Virus record (IMG/VR): IMGVR_UViG_3300024348_000164
Coordinates: 1 to 31,013 of that record
Source: a virus
Direction: 5' to 3' (one strand)
DNA length: 31,013 nt
The notes under the pieces were generated by a model, which was not told the origin of the DNA, searched no databases, and saw nothing but the letters and a program-made list of their open reading frames with translations. The number at the start of each line of letters is the position of its first letter. Position 1 is the stretch's first letter. Positions 2,588 through 30,562 of the stretch are shown here, piece by piece. The position numbers and the translations under genes are program-made.

Positions 2588-3134
2588 GGTAAGCGCATCT
2601 ACCGTAATAGGTATTGATGCATCTACTAATTCTGTAGCATTTTGTCTATTTAGAGATGGCAAGCCAGAGAGATATGGAAAAATTCTTCTTAATGGAATGA
2701 CAATTTATGAAAAGATAGCAGATGCTAGAAATAAAATTGGTGCATTTAGTGAAGAGCTTAAGGCTGATTACATTGCAATGGAAGGCGCAATTATGGTTAA
2801 GTCTGCTGATGCGGTAATAAAACTATCATATGTATACGGAGTAGTACTTGCTGAACTTATGCAGTATAACCCAGAGGTAATAACTGTTGCACCTATATCT
2901 TGGCAGTCATACATAGGAAATAAGAACCTTACTAATGATGAAAAGAATGGTATTAAAATTACAAACCCAGGAAAAACAGATTCCTGGTATAAGACAAAGC
3001 AAAGAGAAATAAGAAAGCAAAGAACCGTAGACTGGGTAAAAAGATCTTTCGGTATTGAGCTAGATGATTTTGATGTTGCGGATGCAGTAGGTATTGCCTT
3101 CTTTGCACAGAAGACATTGACGGAGAAGAAGTGA
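2565..3134 (+). CDS. RuvC-like Holliday junction resolvase
   Basis: 189 residues with the RNase H-fold layout of phage RuvC-type resolvases: GIDASTNSVAF (Asp18), YIAMEG (Glu73) and a C-terminal DVADAVGIAFF (Asp170, Asp173). These acidic residues bind the two metal ions that cut four-way junctions. In phages the enzyme resolves recombination branches before packaging, which fits recA, the Cas4-like nuclease and terminase nearby. It overlaps the preceding gene by 23 nt; its stop overlaps a GTG start (GTGA). Confidence 0.88.
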   Translation: MTLARLNKVSASTVIGIDASTNSVAFCLFRDGKPERYGKILLNGMTIYEKIADARNKIGAFSEELKADYIAMEGAIMVKSADAVIKLSYVYGVVLAELMQYNPEVITVAPISWQSYIGNKNLTNDEKNGIKITNPGKTDSWYKTKQREIRKQRTVDWVKRSFGIELDDFDVADAVGIAFFAQKTLTEKK

Positions 3135-3292
3135 AGCTCTACCAAAGCAAAGATTATTTATTTAGAAGATATGTACTTCAAAAGAAAACGATAAAGGAGA
3201 TAGCAGAAGAATGTCAAGTATCGCACATGACAATCCAGAGATATCTGGAAGACTTTGGTCTGATAAAGAATCAGAGGAAGTGGAAAAGGTAG
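3131..3292 (+). CDS. Helix-turn-helix micro-protein
   Basis: 53 residues from a GTG coupled to the resolvase stop. The segment KTIKEIAEECQVSHMTIQRY matches a homeodomain-like helix-turn-helix: a first helix, the ECQVS turn and a TIQRYL recognition helix, then GLIKNQRKWKR. It probably binds DNA; it resembles the HTH of small terminase subunits or resolvase tails. Its last 82 nt are shared in another frame with the methyltransferase gene if that starts at 3211. Confidence 0.7.
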   Translation: MKLYQSKDYLFRRYVLQKKTIKEIAEECQVSHMTIQRYLEDFGLIKNQRKWKR

Positions 3293-4041
3293 AAACTATC
3301 TACCCAATAACTATGGCTAAAACCAATTATGGCTTTAGTCTATATGTCGTTGATGGAGACGAACACGTCGGCGGAAACATTCAGAAGCTTGGATTTTGGG
3401 AGCCAGAGACAACAAATTGGCTAATAAAGAATGTACAAGAAACTGATACATGCCTGGACATAGGAATGAACATTGGTTATTTTACAGAGATCATGGCTAG
3501 GGCAACTGGTCCATACGGAAGAGTGTTTTCATTTGAAGCAAACAAAGAGCTTGTTAATGTTTATGAAAAAACTATTCTAGAATCAGATAACGATTATGAG
3601 TCCACTGGTGCTATTAACTTGTTCGATATTGGCTTATCTAATGAAACTAAAGAGGCCTTTATATTAATTCCAAATACAAATATTGGCGGAGCAGGAATAA
3701 CAGATGAAGACAGCACAGTAGATGGTATGACAAGCCTTCCAGTAATGCTTGATAATATAAACAATATTATAGATGAAATTACAATTGACGAGATTGATAT
3801 TATTAAGATGGATGTTGAGGGGCACGAAGAAAAGATCTGGGACACTTTAGAAAGACCTTTAAAGTCATGTCGTGCTGCGATTGTAGAACTAGGACCATAT
3901 CACTCAGAAGAGTTTTTAAATAAAGTATCATCTCAATTTAACATGTATAGATTAGTTAATGATGAAGAGATGGAAATTGTAGTTGGAGATATTATAGATG
4001 CTCCACACCATATGAATGTTGTATTAAGGCATAAATCCTAG
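3211..4041 (+). CDS. FkbM-family SAM-dependent methyltransferase
   Basis: 276 residues. The core begins NYGFSLYVVDGDEHVGG, then the SAM motif LDIGMNIGY (residues 82-90), FSFEANKELV (acidic ribose-binding position) and IIKMDVEGHEEKIW, typical of FkbM methyltransferases. The family methylates sugars and other small hydroxylated targets; phage members may modify host glycans or phage products. The ATG at 3211 has AAGGAG 11 nt upstream. An alternative ATG at 3313 (residue 35) has no clear ribosome site but would avoid most of the overlap with the HTH gene. It is the last gene before the terminase promoter. Confidence 0.88.
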   Translation: MSSIAHDNPEISGRLWSDKESEEVEKVETIYPITMAKTNYGFSLYVVDGDEHVGGNIQKLGFWEPETTNWLIKNVQETDTCLDIGMNIGYFTEIMARATGPYGRVFSFEANKELVNVYEKTILESDNDYESTGAINLFDIGLSNETKEAFILIPNTNIGGAGITDEDSTVDGMTSLPVMLDNINNIIDEITIDEIDIIKMDVEGHEEKIWDTLERPLKSCRAAIVELGPYHSEEFLNKVSSQFNMYRLVNDEEMEIVVGDIIDAPHHMNVVLRHKS

Positions 4042-4051
4042 TTAATTAGCT

Positions 4052-4080
4052 TTGACATTTTAGTTGACCAAGAGTATACT
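4052..4080 (+). promoter_or_regulatory. Sigma70-type promoter before the terminase genes
   Basis: TTGACA at 4052-4057, a 17-nt spacer, TATACT at 4075-4080. An AGGAG ribosome site then precedes the ATG at 4102. This is near consensus for the housekeeping sigma factor and starts the packaging transcript. Confidence 0.85.
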
Positions 4081-4101
4081 TTATATAGAACAGGAGATAT
4101 T

Positions 4102-4671
4102 ATGTCTGAAATAGAATTAGCAGAACGTTTTGACCGTATGAACAAAGTAGTAGAACAAATGCTTATGGGCAATAGTGCTACTCAAATTTCAAAGACTCTA
4201 TCTCTTCCACGTAAAGACGTGCTAGAATTAATTGAAGAATGGAAAACTGTTGTTCGTGATGATTCAAGTGCAAGAGACCGTGCAAAAGAAGCGGTAGCAG
4301 GTGCAGATCAACACTACGCAATGCTCATTAAAGAGGCCTGGAAGACTGTAGACGATGCAGATCAGGCAGGACAACTAAATGTTAAGGCTACCATATTAAA
4401 GCTTATCTCAGACATTGAGCAGAAAAGAATTGCTATGCTTCAGCAGCTTGGATTACTTGATAATGCAGAGCTTGCCAGCCATCTTGCAGAAACAGAAAGA
4501 AAGCAAGACATTCTTATTGGAATATTAAAAGATATATCAGCAGAGTATCCACAGGTAAGAAATGAAATTATGCGTAGGCTTTCACAGATATCTAATCAGG
4601 TTGAAGAAGTAATCATTGCAGAGGCAAATAATGTAACTAGCCTCAGAGATGTGAGCGAAGATGTCGTTTAA
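4102..4671 (+). CDS. terS: Probable terminase small subunit
   Basis: 189 residues. The N-terminal half has a helix-turn-helix-like stretch (GNSATQISKTLSLPRKDVLEL) as expected for DNA recognition. The rest is long amphipathic helix, including QKRIAMLQQLGLLDNAELASH, suited to oligomer formation. It directly precedes and overlaps by 11 nt the large terminase gene, and has its own promoter. The call rests on HTH plus position; sequence similarity alone would not decide it. Confidence 0.78.
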   Translation: MSEIELAERFDRMNKVVEQMLMGNSATQISKTLSLPRKDVLELIEEWKTVVRDDSSARDRAKEAVAGADQHYAMLIKEAWKTVDDADQAGQLNVKATILKLISDIEQKRIAMLQQLGLLDNAELASHLAETERKQDILIGILKDISAEYPQVRNEIMRRLSQISNQVEEVIIAEANNVTSLRDVSEDVV

Positions 4672-13827: not shown

Positions 13828-16554
13828 ATGAAAAAACGGCTATTAATTAGTATGTTTTCAGCAGTGTTATTAGCACTGCTATTAGCTATTTTATCCCCAA
13901 ATAAAGCTCATGCAGAAGATCCAGTTCCAGCACCAGCAGAACAAGTAATTGTAAGCCCCGCACAGCAAGCAGTCAATACAGCAATTGCAACAGCAACAAC
14001 AGAAGTGGCACAGGCAGCGCAAGCCTCAGATACAGCGACAGTAACAATAGCCACAGCGGTTCAAGCAGTAGCAACATCTAACACAGCAGTAAATGCAGCA
14101 AATACTGCGGTGACTGCGGCAACTATTGCGGTAGCAGAAGTGTCAAATGTATCAACAGCTGTAGAAACTGCAACAGCAGTTGTTCAAACGATTACTTCAA
14201 CAGTATCGGCAGTTACACAGGCCGTAGCCGCAATACCAGTAGCAGCCACAACTCAAACACCAGAAGTTGTAGCGGCACAAGCAGTAGTAACGCAAGCCGT
14301 TACTACCGTAGATTCTGCAACATCCACAGTGATAGCAACAGCAACTCCATTAATGACAGAGACACCAACCACAGTTGCACAAGTAGCCACAGCAATTACA
14401 ACAGAAGTTGCCCAGTCAGAGACAGCCACAGTTTTAGTTCAATCAGCACAGACAGCAATAGATACGGCTACTGCAACAGTTTCTACAGCAACTACGGCGG
14501 TAGCAGCAGTAACACCTGCACGAACAGAGGCTCAGACACAATTGACTCAAGCAAATGTTGCAATTAATAATGCTCAGGATGCAGTAAACGCCCTTGCAGC
14601 AACTATAGGTTCTACCACAAATGTTCTTGCAAATGTAGATGACGCTGGTGTACGAATGAACCTTCCGTTTAATTTGCAGATGGGTGGAGTTACTTATAAC
14701 AATGTTTTTGTAGGATCTAATGCGACAATTACTTTTGGAGTCAATGAAGGTGGAAATTACTACAGTACTCCAAATGCTCCATCTATTTCCATAGCTGGAT
14801 ATGACTGGACCACCTGGAGTAATGGATCTGGAATTACATATTCAACAACTACTAATACACTGAGTGTTGCCTGGGATCTTAGAGTTTATCCTTTGCAAAC
14901 AGCCGAAACACAAATGACTCAGGTCAGATTTAATGCAGATGTAAACCCAGCAGATGGCGCTTGGCAAGCAGATGTTAGCGTAACTGGACCAATACCAAAT
15001 GGTGCTAGGTTTAACGTAAGAGAGACAACTGGTGGTACAGTAACAAATATTAATAATACAAGCACTACTACAGGATTTACTGGGACAATTTCTCAGGGGT
15101 CTGCATTTACTCCTACACCTGATCCAAGCAATGCATCAGTTCAGGCGGCAATAGAAACAGCTAATGCACAAATTGCTATATTAAACTCAGCGGTTACAGC
15201 GATTGTTGCAACAAATACAGTTAATGCAAATACAGTTATTGCACCAATAGCAACTGTTTCACAAAATACAATTACATCATTAAATAACGCAAGCACAGAC
15301 TTGGCTAATAAGGTAGAAGCAATTGCAGCCGTTTCTGTAGCAGTAGAAAAAGTAACTACAGCACCTACAATAGTGGCAGCAGCTCAAACAGTAATTGATG
15401 CAGTTCCTGCACCAGCGCCCTTGCCAGCCCCTGCTCCACCTGCACCAGTTGAACCACCAGTAGTCGTGCCACCTGTAGACACTACACCCGTAGTCGTGCC
15501 ACCTGTAGACACTACACCCGTAGTCGTGCCACCTGTAGACACTACACCAGTAACTACCACACCAGTTGATACCACACCTGTGGAGACAGAACCTGTAGAT
15601 ACCACACCTGTTGAAACGGAACCTGTAGATACCACACCTGTTGAAACGGAACCTGTAGACACCACACCTGTGGAGACGGAGCCTATAGACACAGAACCTG
15701 TAGAAACAGAACCTGTAGACACTACGCCCATAGAAACAGAGCCAGTTGATACCACACCTGTGGAAACAGAGCCAGTTGATACAGAACCAGTAGATACAGA
15801 GCCAGTGACGGGATCAGAAGAAGATGTAACAAATACAGTTGATGATGCATTGGAAGATGGTAAAATTGATAGTACAGAAGTTGAAGAAATTGCAGATGCA
15901 ATGGCAGCAGATGGAGAAATTGATTCAGAAGAAACAGATCAATTAATTGAAGCATTAGCAGAAGATGGAAAAGTTTCTGTAGCAGATCAAGAAGCAGTTC
16001 TGGAAGCACTTGCGTCAGACGGCGAAGTTTCAAAAGAGGATGTTGCAGCCATTGTTGAATTAGCTAACTCAGATGGTAAATTATCTGAAGCAGAAAAAGA
16101 TATTGTTGCTGATGCATTAATTCAATCAGTTCCAGAAGGTGAAAATCTTACTAAAGAACAGGTAGCGGAAGCTGGAATTAAGTTATCAGATTTGCCAGCA
16201 AGCACACCAGTTGATGTTAGAACATCTGAAAATGGTGAATCAGTTGTAATTACTGCAGAAGTTGCAGTACAAGTAGAATTAATATCTGATCCAGCAGCCT
16301 TTGCACAAGAGTTATTTAATGACCCAGGAGCAGCACTACAGGCCCTTGGAAGCATAGGTGCAGATATGACAGAAGGCGAAAGAGAAGAAGCAACTGAAAT
16401 GGTTGTAGCAACAGTTGTAGCAGCAGGAGCGGCAATTAACGCCGCAGCAGTTGCCACAGGAGGAGCCACTGGAGGTGGCACAGGGGGCGGAGGAAGTTCT
16501 GGTGGAGGCTCAGGAGCTAATTCACCAGGTTCACGAGGAGGAAGAAGATGGTAA
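13828..16554 (+). CDS. Large secreted repeat protein (coiled coil, beta-sandwich, PVDTTP stalk, EF-hand-like repeats)
   Basis: 908 residues. Signal peptide to about residue 29 (LLALLLAILSP..AHA). Residues 30-265 are Ala/Val/Thr-rich with heptad-like periodicity. Residues 269-428 form a beta-rich domain with many Asn, Gly and Trp residues (NLPFNLQMGGVTYNNVFVG; GYDWTTWSNG), likely a lectin-type sandwich. A Pro/Thr/Glu stalk of PVDTTPVETEP repeats spans about 540-660. Residues 664-761 hold five units near 20 residues long, each with a (E/S/A)DG(K/E)(I/V/L) turn resembling EF-hand loops. A hydrophobic segment and a Gly-rich basic tail (GSRGGRRW) end the protein. The layout suits a surface adhesin or fibre. 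It overlaps the next gene by seven bases. Confidence 0.85.
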   Translation: MKKRLLISMFSAVLLALLLAILSPNKAHAEDPVPAPAEQVIVSPAQQAVNTAIATATTEVAQAAQASDTATVTIATAVQAVATSNTAVNAANTAVTAATIAVAEVSNVSTAVETATAVVQTITSTVSAVTQAVAAIPVAATTQTPEVVAAQAVVTQAVTTVDSATSTVIATATPLMTETPTTVAQVATAITTEVAQSETATVLVQSAQTAIDTATATVSTATTAVAAVTPARTEAQTQLTQANVAINNAQDAVNALAATIGSTTNVLANVDDAGVRMNLPFNLQMGGVTYNNVFVGSNATITFGVNEGGNYYSTPNAPSISIAGYDWTTWSNGSGITYSTTTNTLSVAWDLRVYPLQTAETQMTQVRFNADVNPADGAWQADVSVTGPIPNGARFNVRETTGGTVTNINNTSTTTGFTGTISQGSAFTPTPDPSNASVQAAIETANAQIAILNSAVTAIVATNTVNANTVIAPIATVSQNTITSLNNASTDLANKVEAIAAVSVAVEKVTTAPTIVAAAQTVIDAVPAPAPLPAPAPPAPVEPPVVVPPVDTTPVVVPPVDTTPVVVPPVDTTPVTTTPVDTTPVETEPVDTTPVETEPVDTTPVETEPVDTTPVETEPIDTEPVETEPVDTTPIETEPVDTTPVETEPVDTEPVDTEPVTGSEEDVTNTVDDALEDGKIDSTEVEEIADAMAADGEIDSEETDQLIEALAEDGKVSVADQEAVLEALASDGEVSKEDVAAIVELANSDGKLSEAEKDIVADALIQSVPEGENLTKEQVAEAGIKLSDLPASTPVDVRTSENGESVVITAEVAVQVELISDPAAFAQELFNDPGAALQALGSIGADMTEGEREEATEMVVATVVAAGAAINAAAVATGGATGGGTGGGGSSGGGSGANSPGSRGGRRW
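15460..15807 (+). repeat. Minisatellite coding the PVDTTP stalk
   Basis: Three tandem copies of a 30-bp unit (VVVPPVDTTP) from 15460, identical apart from the last base of the third, then degenerate 30-bp units coding PVDTTPVETEP and shorter variants. Such tracts change copy number by slippage, so stalk length may vary between phage isolates. Confidence 0.9.
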
Positions 16555-20568: not shown

Positions 20569-20589
20569 TGTGGATAAAAATGTGAATAA
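20569..20589 (+). repeat. Paired DnaA-box-like 9-mers
   Basis: TGTGGATAA at 20569-20577 and TGTGAATAA at 20581-20589, 12 bp apart, between the minus-strand membrane gene and the tRNA promoter. Same motif and spacing as in the 23783-23827 array. Confidence 0.65.
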
Positions 20590-22860: not shown

Positions 22861-23078
22861 TGTGGTCATGGATATTAGCGGTAATTGGCGTAGCAGGCAT
22901 CTTCTTTGTAGGACGAAAGACCATATGGGGATGGCTAATCCTATGCGTCAACGAAATTCTATGGATCGCATATGCGCTAATCACTGACCAATATGGATTC
23001 ATATTCTCAGCTATTGCTTATGCAGCAGTATATGTTAAATCCTATCTGTCCTGGAGAAAAGACGCTACAACGCCCTAA
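22857..23078 (+). CDS. Small membrane protein, PnuC-like topology
   Basis: 73 residues from the ATG at 22857 (ATGA coupling); a GTG at 22851 is possible. Three hydrophobic segments, with GWLILCVNEILWIAYAL, QYGFIFSAIAYAAVY and a basic SYLSWRK end. The pattern resembles fragments of nicotinamide riboside transporters (PnuC) seen in phages, but at 73 residues it may be only a look-alike. Confidence 0.72.
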   Translation: MMWSWILAVIGVAGIFFVGRKTIWGWLILCVNEILWIAYALITDQYGFIFSAIAYAAVYVKSYLSWRKDATTP

Positions 23079-23085
23079 CAGGGCG
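23071..23085 (+). terminator. Hairpin at the end of the plus block
   Basis: CGCCCT-AAC-AGGGCG; the stop codon TAA lies at the loop. Compact but without a T run. Confidence 0.5.
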
Positions 23086-23189
23086 GTGTGTGAAATAGAT
23101 AGCACTATTCCCTATGTTATATATATACGCTACATTAAGTATATAGAGGCATATAAGCCCATATGAGCCAATTGATCCATATTGAACAA

Positions 23190-23210
23190 GGAGTAGGTTG
23201 CTCCTACTCC
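23190..23210. terminator. Hairpin GGAGTAGG/CCTACTCC
   Basis: 8-bp perfect stem with TTGCT loop, flanked by a looser CAAGG/CCTTG pair. It may act as a terminator for either strand. Confidence 0.5.
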
Positions 23211-23231
23211 TAATATCACCTTGTAGAGCCA

Positions 23232-23261
23232 TTTAAAGTGGTTTAAAGTGGTGTATAGTGG
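23232..23261 (+). repeat. Three tandem 10-bp repeats
   Basis: TTTAAAGTGG twice in direct succession and then TGTATAGTGG. Iteron-like, one per helical turn. Confidence 0.75.
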
Positions 23262-23574
23262 AGCAATATGGAGTAATAATACTAAAAGAATATCATATAA
23301 TACTAATGATTTATACTATTAATTATATATGTGTATTTGATCATATTTAATAGGCTTCGTAATCATTTGCGGGATAATACCATATAAAAATATGGATGTC
23401 AATAGCCCACATATAACAATTTGGTAAACTTTCCGTGATTTTATGGGCGATTTCGTAATGTTTTTTTTGGATAATTTTGCCCAAATTCTCACGAAATATA
23501 ATGAATAATTAAATATTTAATCATATTCTGTGCATATTTCCTGAGATAATTAATCATTTATATTTACTCCTATA

Positions 23575-23661
23575 TATACCTATACAAGGGATAGAGTTAT
23601 GTTTATTGCCGCCCCGCTTTCGGGCGGCGGAAGAGTACTATCCATTATAGCTATAGGTATA
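23575..23661. repeat. Nested 87-bp inverted repeat
   Basis: Outer arms TATACCTATA (23575) and TATAGGTATA (23652), middle GGATAG (23589) and CTATCC (23638), inner GCCGCCC (23608) and GGGCGGC (23622) with a 7-nt loop. All three are centred on the same axis (23618). The inner part is very GC-rich in AT-rich DNA. Confidence 0.8.
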
Positions 23662-23782
23662 AGTACTTGTCAACTTCAGTGAATATAGATCACATGTCGT
23701 AATGTCTATTAGAATAAATTCATATAAAATTTCAGGGAAAATTTGGATCACATCGTAATGTATATTAGTTTATGTTGACATT

Positions 23783-23827
23783 ATATCCACATAGATATCC
23801 ACAGGGTGTGGATAAAGTTGTGGATAA
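23783..23827. repeat. Array of four DnaA-box-like 9-mers at exact 12-bp spacing
   Basis: ATATCCACA at 23783 and 23795, TGTGGATAA at 23807 and 23819: two in one orientation, two inverted. TGTGGATAA is the complement of TTATCCACA, the DnaA-box consensus; the other two have one change. Confidence 0.85.
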
Positions 23828-23887
23828 CTTATGTCCATATTGTCCGATTTGACAAGCATATTTTTATGTGCTAGATTTCAGTGATTT

Positions 23888-23916
23888 TTGACAATCCTTC
23901 GTAAATATGATATTAT
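23888..23916 (+). promoter_or_regulatory. Plus-strand promoter in the gene-free region
   Basis: TTGACA at 23888-23893, 17-nt spacer, TATTAT at 23911-23916. It points into the terminator at 23938-23973, with no gene between. Confidence 0.65.
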
Positions 23917-23937
23917 ACCGATCCGATATGACCGATG

Positions 23938-23973
23938 CGGCATACCCTGACTTTTGTCAAGTCAGAGCTGCCG
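23938..23973. terminator. Two-part hairpin after the minus-strand block
   Basis: CTGACTT/AAGTCAG (23947-23965) inside CGGCA/TGCCG (23938-23942, 23969-23973). It should stop the minus operon and any plus RNA from 23888. Confidence 0.7.
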
Positions 23974-23978
23974 TGTGT

Positions 23979-24326
23979 TTAGATCAGCAAACCAGAATAT
24001 GCTGCAATAAACTTGTCCCAAGGAACTGAGACGTTATCTGTTACTGTCTTAGTTGTGAAGTCGATAAGGATTGTCTGCTCACCCAAATCGTAATTGTCAT
24101 TATCAATTGCGTAAATTCCAAATCCCGTTTCATCCAGGATTGAATGCTGGATAAGATGACTGATAATCATCCTTGTTCCATATGATGAATCTTGCCAGCG
24201 GGGTTTAGCGTGTTCCATTGCTGCCGCTAAATCTGTCTGCCAGGAATCCTGGCCCCAGTGTGAATATAGTACTACTAATGGACCCGTCTCTGAATCCTTG
24301 AATACGAAATTAATCCGTGCTCCCAT
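23979..24326 (-). CDS. Hypothetical phage protein
   Basis: 115 residues. GARINFVFKDSETGPLVVLYSHWGQ at the start and KPRWQDSSYGTRMIISHLIQ in the middle look like a conserved fold. The stop is followed by a terminator, so it is the last gene of the minus block. Overlaps the preceding gene by 17 nt. Function unknown. Confidence 0.76.
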   Translation of the reverse strand: MGARINFVFKDSETGPLVVLYSHWGQDSWQTDLAAAMEHAKPRWQDSSYGTRMIISHLIQHSILDETGFGIYAIDNDNYDLGEQTILIDFTTKTVTDNVSVPWDKFIAAYSGLLI

Positions 24327-29413: not shown

Positions 29414-30427
29414 TTATGCGATTGCTAAAACTGTTTTCACAATTTTTGCTAAGCGATTTTTTTCTGCGTTGATTTGTGCGTCAAATCCACTTGCAGCAGC
29501 GAGCAAACTTTCTGTCTTTCCACCACGAGCAGTGCGAGCCCAATCAAGGCGTTCGGTGAGTGCATTTAGTGCGCCCCAACCAGTGCCAGCAATCATTCCG
29601 TTGAATTCACCAGTGTATAAATCGTTGATTGTATCCACTTTTGTTTCCCACTTTTTGATTGCGCCTTTTGTATCCTTCTCAGGCTTTGGATAAGCCGCAA
29701 GAATGATGTCGTTGAATTGCTTAGCATTGACTGACTTCTCATAGAGAGCGTTAGCCAACTTTGAGAATTCGTCCATATAGAAATCTGCCATTCCTAGTGC
29801 TTGACGAGCAATAGCAATCTTTCCTTCTGCAGTTTGTGTGTGGCGAATTTTGAATGATTGCTTTACGCCACCCTTTTTCTTAGCACCCAATGCAAGATTG
29901 AGAGTGTTAGCGCACACAACACGAACAGGTGTAATGCTTGCTTGAATAGCAATAGAGCCATCGTGTGATGTGTTGATGAGCAAATAAGTTTTTACAACAT
30001 CATTGACACCAGTAGGGTCTAGAACAACTTCACGCTCTAGAGCAAGAGAGCCGAATACAACACGACCACCCTTGATTGAACCAGCAGTTTCCCAGCGACC
30101 ACCGCCGTCTAGAATGTTATCGCCAAATGCAAATAAATCTTCATTTTGCAATGGAACATAACGCTGACCAACTACACCAAGAATATCGGTTTGTGTGTTG
30201 TCGGTAGGATTAGTGCGTAGGACATACTGATAATCCTTATCAGATGTTAGGTGATTTGGAACTTCCAAATCTTCTAAGCGGACATTCCATCCATTTAGAT
30301 TTGCAAGAGATAGCATTTCAGATGTATTTACTTCATTAGTAAATACGGTTCCTAAACCGTGCCAAGCAGGTTCACGGAATGAGGCAAAAGATGTTTTGCC
30401 ATTTTGACTTTCGAGGTCGTGCGCCAT
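29414..30427 (-). CDS. DUF932 / TIGR03299 phage-plasmid-like protein
   Basis: 337 residues. REPAWHGLGTVF, ILGVVGQRYVPLQNEDLFAF, GGGRWETAGSIKGGRVVFGS and ITPVRVVCANTLNLAL are the signatures of this widespread phage/plasmid family of unknown function. Full-length. AAGAAGG precedes the ATG; the promoter at 30457-30486 and a perfect CRP-like site lie upstream, so expression may respond to host state. Confidence 0.92.
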   Translation of the reverse strand: MAHDLESQNGKTSFASFREPAWHGLGTVFTNEVNTSEMLSLANLNGWNVRLEDLEVPNHLTSDKDYQYVLRTNPTDNTQTDILGVVGQRYVPLQNEDLFAFGDNILDGGGRWETAGSIKGGRVVFGSLALEREVVLDPTGVNDVVKTYLLINTSHDGSIAIQASITPVRVVCANTLNLALGAKKKGGVKQSFKIRHTQTAEGKIAIARQALGMADFYMDEFSKLANALYEKSVNAKQFNDIILAAYPKPEKDTKGAIKKWETKVDTINDLYTGEFNGMIAGTGWGALNALTERLDWARTARGGKTESLLAAASGFDAQINAEKNRLAKIVKTVLAIA

Positions 30428-30542: not shown

Positions 30543-30562
30543 TGTGGATAAGCTGTGGATAA
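30543..30562. repeat. Paired DnaA-box-like 9-mers
   Basis: TGTGGATAA at 30543 and again at 30554, 11 bp apart, both exact. Confidence 0.7.

Follow-up and report, generated by a model that had tools for sequence, protein, structure and literature searches.

A phased array of DnaA-box-like sites in the gene-free control region of a large phage: a candidate replication start, probably bound by host DnaA

What could four DnaA-box-like 9-mers, set at an exact 12-bp pitch in DNA without genes, do for a phage? The question is raised by a virus record of 31,013 bp (the window, i.e. the whole stretch of DNA that was analysed), for which an earlier note had reported such an array at 23783-23827 and had proposed a replication origin using host DnaA. 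On recheck the coordinates, the sequences and the exact spacing (12, 12 and 12 bp) of the four 9-mers were all correct:

23783-23791, plus strand: DnaA-box-like 9-mer ATATCCACA, one mismatch to TTATCCACA
23795-23803, plus strand: DnaA-box-like 9-mer ATATCCACA, one mismatch to TTATCCACA
23807-23815, minus strand: exact DnaA box TTATCCACA (the top strand reads TGTGGATAA)
23819-23827, minus strand: exact DnaA box TTATCCACA (the top strand reads TGTGGATAA)

Over the whole window 21 sites with at most one mismatch to the 9-mer were observed, against 10.2 expected, and at least three such sites inside 45 bp occurred in 0 of 300 first-order shuffles of the window. Site count and shuffles rule out a chance origin of the array. 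Clustering of consensus DnaA 9-mers beyond chance, a mark of DnaA-dependent origins, is therefore present.

The array lies in a gap between the last plus-strand gene, which ends at 23078, and the last minus-strand gene, 23979-24326. Within it, GC content falls to 0.21-0.24 at 23250-23400, 23450-23600 and 23700-23800. The following features were recognised in this region:

23079-23978, no strand: gene-free control region of about 900 bp between convergent gene blocks, syntenic in relatives and in Streptomyces phages
23250-23599, no strand: AT-rich stretch, candidate unwinding region (100-bp windows mostly 0.21-0.35 GC)
23608-23628, no strand: GC-rich hairpin GCCGCCC..GGGCGGC
23644-23673, minus strand: sigma70-like promoter TTGACA-18-TATAAT (12/12), leftward, away from the array; consensus match only
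23849-23877, plus strand: sigma70-like promoter TTGACA-17-TAGATT with TG, rightward; consensus match only
23888-23916, plus strand: sigma70-like promoter TTGACA-17-TATTAT with TG, rightward; consensus match only
23938-23973, no strand: nested hairpin CGGCA-CTGACTT..AAGTCAG-TGCCG, closing the minus-strand block

The gene-free region and the AT-rich DNA beside the array, both described before, were thus confirmed; the 'large palindrome' reported with them proved to be the GC-rich hairpin, the rest being imperfect inverted repeats. The nested hairpin recurs in L006-L008 and is probably a terminator. The promoter-like sites that flank the array face outward. Known RNA families were not found in the gap, the Rfam matches in the window being tRNAs only. 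Elsewhere in the window, a possible virion surface protein of 908 aa is encoded at 13828-16554; it has repeats rich in Ala, Thr and Val as well as a DTTPVETEPV repeat.

The 9-mer of the array is also present in two further doublets:

20569-20589, minus strand: second doublet, TTATCCACA/TTATTCACA, 12-bp pitch (20569/20581), kept in the related genome G001
30543-30562, minus strand: third doublet, TTATCCACA twice, 11-bp pitch (30543/30554), with a 12-bp pitch in G001

In all, the window holds three clusters with eight boxes, five of them exact, within 31 kb. The second doublet stands upstream of a perfect TTGACA-17-TATAAT promoter (20599) and a tRNA-Met, some 10 bp from the promoter, and this arrangement is conserved in G001 (107,950 bp, probably complete, with a 55-bp end overlap). 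It is possible that expression of the tRNA-Met is controlled by DnaA through this doublet. The third doublet sits upstream of the phrog_1221 (DUF945-like) gene at 29414-30427.

Conservation of the array was studied by a layout scan of viral contigs in which the central gap was left free at 0-12 bp. Four contigs matched and every one had the exact spacing of the window. Three of these are close relatives as judged by a flanking gene; in the fourth, G002, the phrog_1221 protein is 82% identical to that of the window, and the array is 96% identical whereas the adjoining 200 bp on each side are 60% and 61% identical. The syntenic gap was further searched with phrog_1221 as the anchor (36 loci), the zone 3.0-6.2 kb downstream being scanned. 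At least one doublet at 11-13 bp was present in 19 of the 26 non-duplicate loci whose sequence included this zone, at a density 11-fold that found elsewhere. The remaining 7 of the 26 had no doublet in the scanned zone, and G004 and G006 had none anywhere in the genome, which implies that the boxes are not indispensable in this phage group. In distant relatives the number, orientation and order of the boxes vary while the 11/12-bp pitch is retained. The four-box mirror is therefore one version of a wider design, and it was dropped as a general functional unit. The expectation that the array would be conserved in relatives thus holds exactly in the close ones; in distant ones the pitch survives a reshuffling of number and orientation, and some relatives have no such array. 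Helically phased, cooperative spacing, as in a DnaA-dependent origin, is kept. A similar periodicity was seen in viral contigs with two tandem TTATCCACA boxes, where, among the matches listed, start-to-start distances peaked at 11-13, 21-22 and 32-33 bp, while distances of 9-10 and 14-16 bp were absent. Such a spectrum is expected of a site that is bound cooperatively and in helical phase.

The terminase of the window is 59-60% and its phrog_1221 protein 52-54% identical to those of Stanwilliamsviridae phages. The window comes from a Stanwilliamsviridae-like large lytic actinophage, whose hosts are probably freshwater actinobacteria. A RecA-based genome scan for the host yielded no host, returning a MAG contig labelled cyanobacterium and two weak matches. 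That contig, L305 (CAINGU010000031.1, 109,918 bp, from a MAG labelled uncultured cyanobacterium), carries a RecA 77% identical to that of the phage and is, as its size of about 110 kb indicates, probably a misbinned phage relative. With blastn of the gap, 33 of 33 bases were identical in phages Ankus and Byblos, and a short-query search revealed box clusters in dozens of Streptomyces phages, almost always in unannotated DNA. Yaboi, IchabodCrane and EGole carry the boxes in DNA without genes where two blocks converge, one on the thioredoxin side and one on the phrog_1221/DUF945 side; between the boxes and the minus-strand block there is a single short plus-strand gene in Yaboi, and there are two in Jay2Jay. 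These Boydwoodruffvirinae, Jay2Jay included, share with the window the order thioredoxin side, gap with TTATCCACA cluster, phrog_1221/DUF945 side. An 11-13 bp or mirror box layout like that of the window is found in these phages and in the Loccivirinae Annadreamy and Faust, in which the genes flanking the boxes are co-directional, and many Stanwilliamsviridae have box clusters in their gene-free region. Loccivirinae and Ankus-like phages also have a conserved stretch directly after the boxes, GCGCAATGTTACTTCACAGTATGTGAG...CTCTGTACGCCTCTCTACGGGCC... (L173 and L174, about 3030-3300; L170, about 4030-4300); this stretch may form a structured RNA or bind a protein.

Which protein would bind these boxes? 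Throughout eight genomes or records no DnaA domain, Rep3 initiator (Rep3_N) or IstB/DnaC-type loader was found, and a phage-encoded DnaA was rejected. G001 encodes a DnaB-type helicase, a DnaG-type primase, a Pol III alpha subunit and RecA; the helicase is present in seven of the eight, the exception being the fragment G002. Since this helicase needs some loader, host DnaA at the cluster would be the simplest candidate. Published lists give TTATCCACA as the high-affinity box for E. coli, Vibrio, Pseudomonas and Bacillus, and TTGTCCACA for Streptomyces and Mycobacterium (PMC4285127). The Streptomyces phages carry TTATCCACA all the same, which counts against the proposed reading, and the DnaA box of the window's host may be a different one. 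The exact consensus, the 11/12-bp pitch, conservation beyond that of the flanks and the failure to find a phage DnaA nevertheless support host DnaA well as the ligand, and from these features it probably binds the array.

The gap contains a second repeated motif, a directional element, TCGTAAT(G) or TCGTAATG, which often has TTCCnGTGATTTTTT just before it. Four copies, all forward, are found in the window:

23358-23364, plus strand: core CGTAATC (in TTCGTAATC)
23454-23460, plus strand: core CGTAATG (in the composite TTTCCGTGATTTT...TTCGTAATG)
23698-23704, plus strand: core CGTAATG (in GATCACATGTCGTAATGTCTATTAG)
23754-23760, plus strand: core CGTAATG (in GATCACATCGTAATGTATATTAG)

TCGTAATG was found in 18 of 19 gaps against 0.4 expected. 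This enrichment is independent of how the gaps were chosen, whereas the presence of TTATCCACA in 19 of 19 is circular, the gaps having been picked by their boxes. GC content in the gaps is 0.34-0.39 even where that of the phage is 0.43-0.46. In gaps of the window family, usually with 4-6 copies each, 92 forward copies of the core CGTAAT stand against a single reverse one, a count that comes from related, not independent, sequences. A single orientation of all repeats is as in iteron origins; regular helical spacing was not observed, the repeats being about 11 to more than 300 bp apart, and a search for a cognate Rep initiator of the Rep3 family (Rep3_N) found none in the eight genomes or records. 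A classical iteron origin with Rep was rejected on both grounds. The window also has tandem 10-bp repeats (TTTAAAGTGG/TTTAAAGTGG/TGTATAGTGG/AGCAATATGG) at 23230-23281, and similar GTGG-rich repeats precede TCGTAATG elements in G004, G006, L018, L021, L022 and others.

At an origin of bacterial type a minimum of cumulative GC skew is expected. The skew was found to change at the array, as a check proposed in the earlier note had anticipated, but it peaks there rather than bottoms: the array coincides with the maximum in the window and with a local maximum in G001. Convergent transcription accounts for this sign, since plus-strand genes run up to the array from one side and minus-strand genes from the other. 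No change of sign at the boxes was seen in Annadreamy, whose flanking genes are co-directional. An origin is therefore neither supported nor excluded by GC skew; a skew minimum is a common but not universal property of origins.

Yaboi has an exact terminal repeat of 12,432 bp that starts at 118819, and its last box ends at 118758. In the deposited repeats the start lies 60 bp (Yaboi), 60 bp (IchabodCrane), 49 bp (Jay2Jay) and 49 bp (EGole) past the last box, and always directly after AGTGTGTAATG^. In the window's family a similar motif, GTGTAATGG or GGGTAATGG, lies 67-68 bp past the last box in L027, L028, L034 and L048, and 38 bp past it in L036, L037 and L041. This terminus motif and the directional element have GTAATG in common, in the same orientation. 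Neither the terminus link, nor the directional element, nor the two further doublets had been noticed before. A fixed distance to the mapped genome end, as of a signal for direct terminal repeats, is thus present in four Boydwoodruffvirinae, and it would fit a packaging role as well, in which boxes and GTAATG motifs are part of the terminase cut site and the resemblance to DnaA boxes is secondary, or DnaA merely exposes the site. However, Annadreamy has a 789-bp repeat whose start is some 6 kb away from the boxes and differs in sequence, Tomas lacks boxes although its terminus carries the motif, and the window has no clear copy of the motif. Box doublets moreover occur upstream of promoters far from the gap, and the 9-mer is the exact DnaA consensus. 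A packaging signal is for these reasons doubtful. In the Streptomyces relatives of the window the array is most likely, as judged from these sequences, a host-dependent replication start coupled to the genome end. The distances of 38, 49 and 60 bp differ by steps of 11 bp, about one helical turn, which is suggestive of a helical register, and only suggestive. On a bolder version of the coupling, which we consider rather unlikely, replication would begin right at the border of the terminal repeat, from a DnaA complex that is in helical register (38, 49 or 60 bp) with the motif cut by terminase, and duplication of the 12-kb repeat would thereby be coupled to genome maturation, TCGTAATG repeats making the process one-way. 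The four Boydwoodruffvirinae examined differ from the window in having two or three boxes and one TGTAATG at the genome end; the window family is distinguished from Stanwilliamsviridae by its size (about 107 kb), its GC content (0.36-0.46), its many directional TCGTAATG copies and the full four-box mirror.

The array could instead be an operator, through which the outward promoters would be controlled by host DnaA, known to act as a transcription factor (PMC4447404), or by a phage regulator that recognises the same sequence. Good promoters are present on both sides of the array, and the second and third doublets, upstream of the conserved tRNA-Met promoter and of the phrog_1221 gene, would suit such a switch. 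But convergent genes end on both sides of the array, so that no annotated gene of the window is served by the outward promoters, promoter-like sites are not more numerous than in shuffles, and box order and number change freely among relatives. A transcription switch is accordingly unlikely.

DnaA-box plasmids titrate DnaA and delay initiation in E. coli (PMC5835720), and high-copy phage genomes with strong doublets might in the same way, like datA, act as a sink that stops new rounds of host chromosome replication. The three clusters of the window would be in keeping with this, but for such a function neither a set position nor a constant distance to a terminus motif nor a directional element alongside would be required, which makes a sink quite improbable. 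That DnaA on the boxes makes genome entry pause, the role suggested for the T5 stop signal, which has been described as holding DnaA boxes (PMC13250531), is very improbable: in Boydwoodruffvirinae the boxes do border the right terminal repeat on its inner side, and T5-like Escherichia phage DT57C (L178, 2940-3021) has in its early non-coding region two TTATCCACA doublets, each with a 12-bp pitch, 61 bp start to start and beside long GTGATTATT repeats, but two-step transfer is without any sign in this phage group. DT57C resembles the window in its doublets, their pitch and the repeat-rich non-coding DNA, here near a long terminal repeat, and differs from it in phage family, host phylum and position relative to the terminal repeat.

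The start of phage replication at this site is the best single explanation, with a probability of roughly one half, and the array is best read as a host-DnaA-binding replication-start module in the terminus control region. As for the origin originally proposed, DnaA as the ligand is well supported, and the origin itself is plausible but unproven, the sign of the skew being the wrong one. We infer DnaA binding, DNA unwinding and replication start at the array. In this scheme host DnaA would bind the boxes at 11/12-bp pitch cooperatively in the main non-coding control region and, together with the directional phage element TCGTAATG and beside the AT-rich DNA, would open or mark the region. The phage DnaB helicase and primase would then start replication there, at or beside the point where the unit genome begins and ends. 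The window resembles bacterial oriC and DnaA-assisted plasmid origins (P1, F, pSC101, RK2) in having box doublets beside AT-rich DNA and a repeated directional element; unlike them, it has no Rep3-type initiator that could be found, its directional repeats are irregular and its skew has the sign opposite to that of a chromosomal origin. In phage lambda the initiator is gpO, DnaA acts on transcription and a 12-bp array is absent, and in these respects lambda differs from the replication start proposed here. Host DnaA does bind the phage replication region pO/ori-lambda (PMC3985674), which is what is predicted for the window.

A description of the cluster in these phages was not found in the part of the open literature that was covered. 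Both the start of replication in large lytic actinophages and the duplication of their long terminal repeats are poorly known. Because a conserved DnaA-box cluster lies by the physical genome end in Streptomyces phages that can be cultivated, both questions are open to direct test, and the cluster suggests that the host initiator is still needed by phages that encode a nearly complete replisome.
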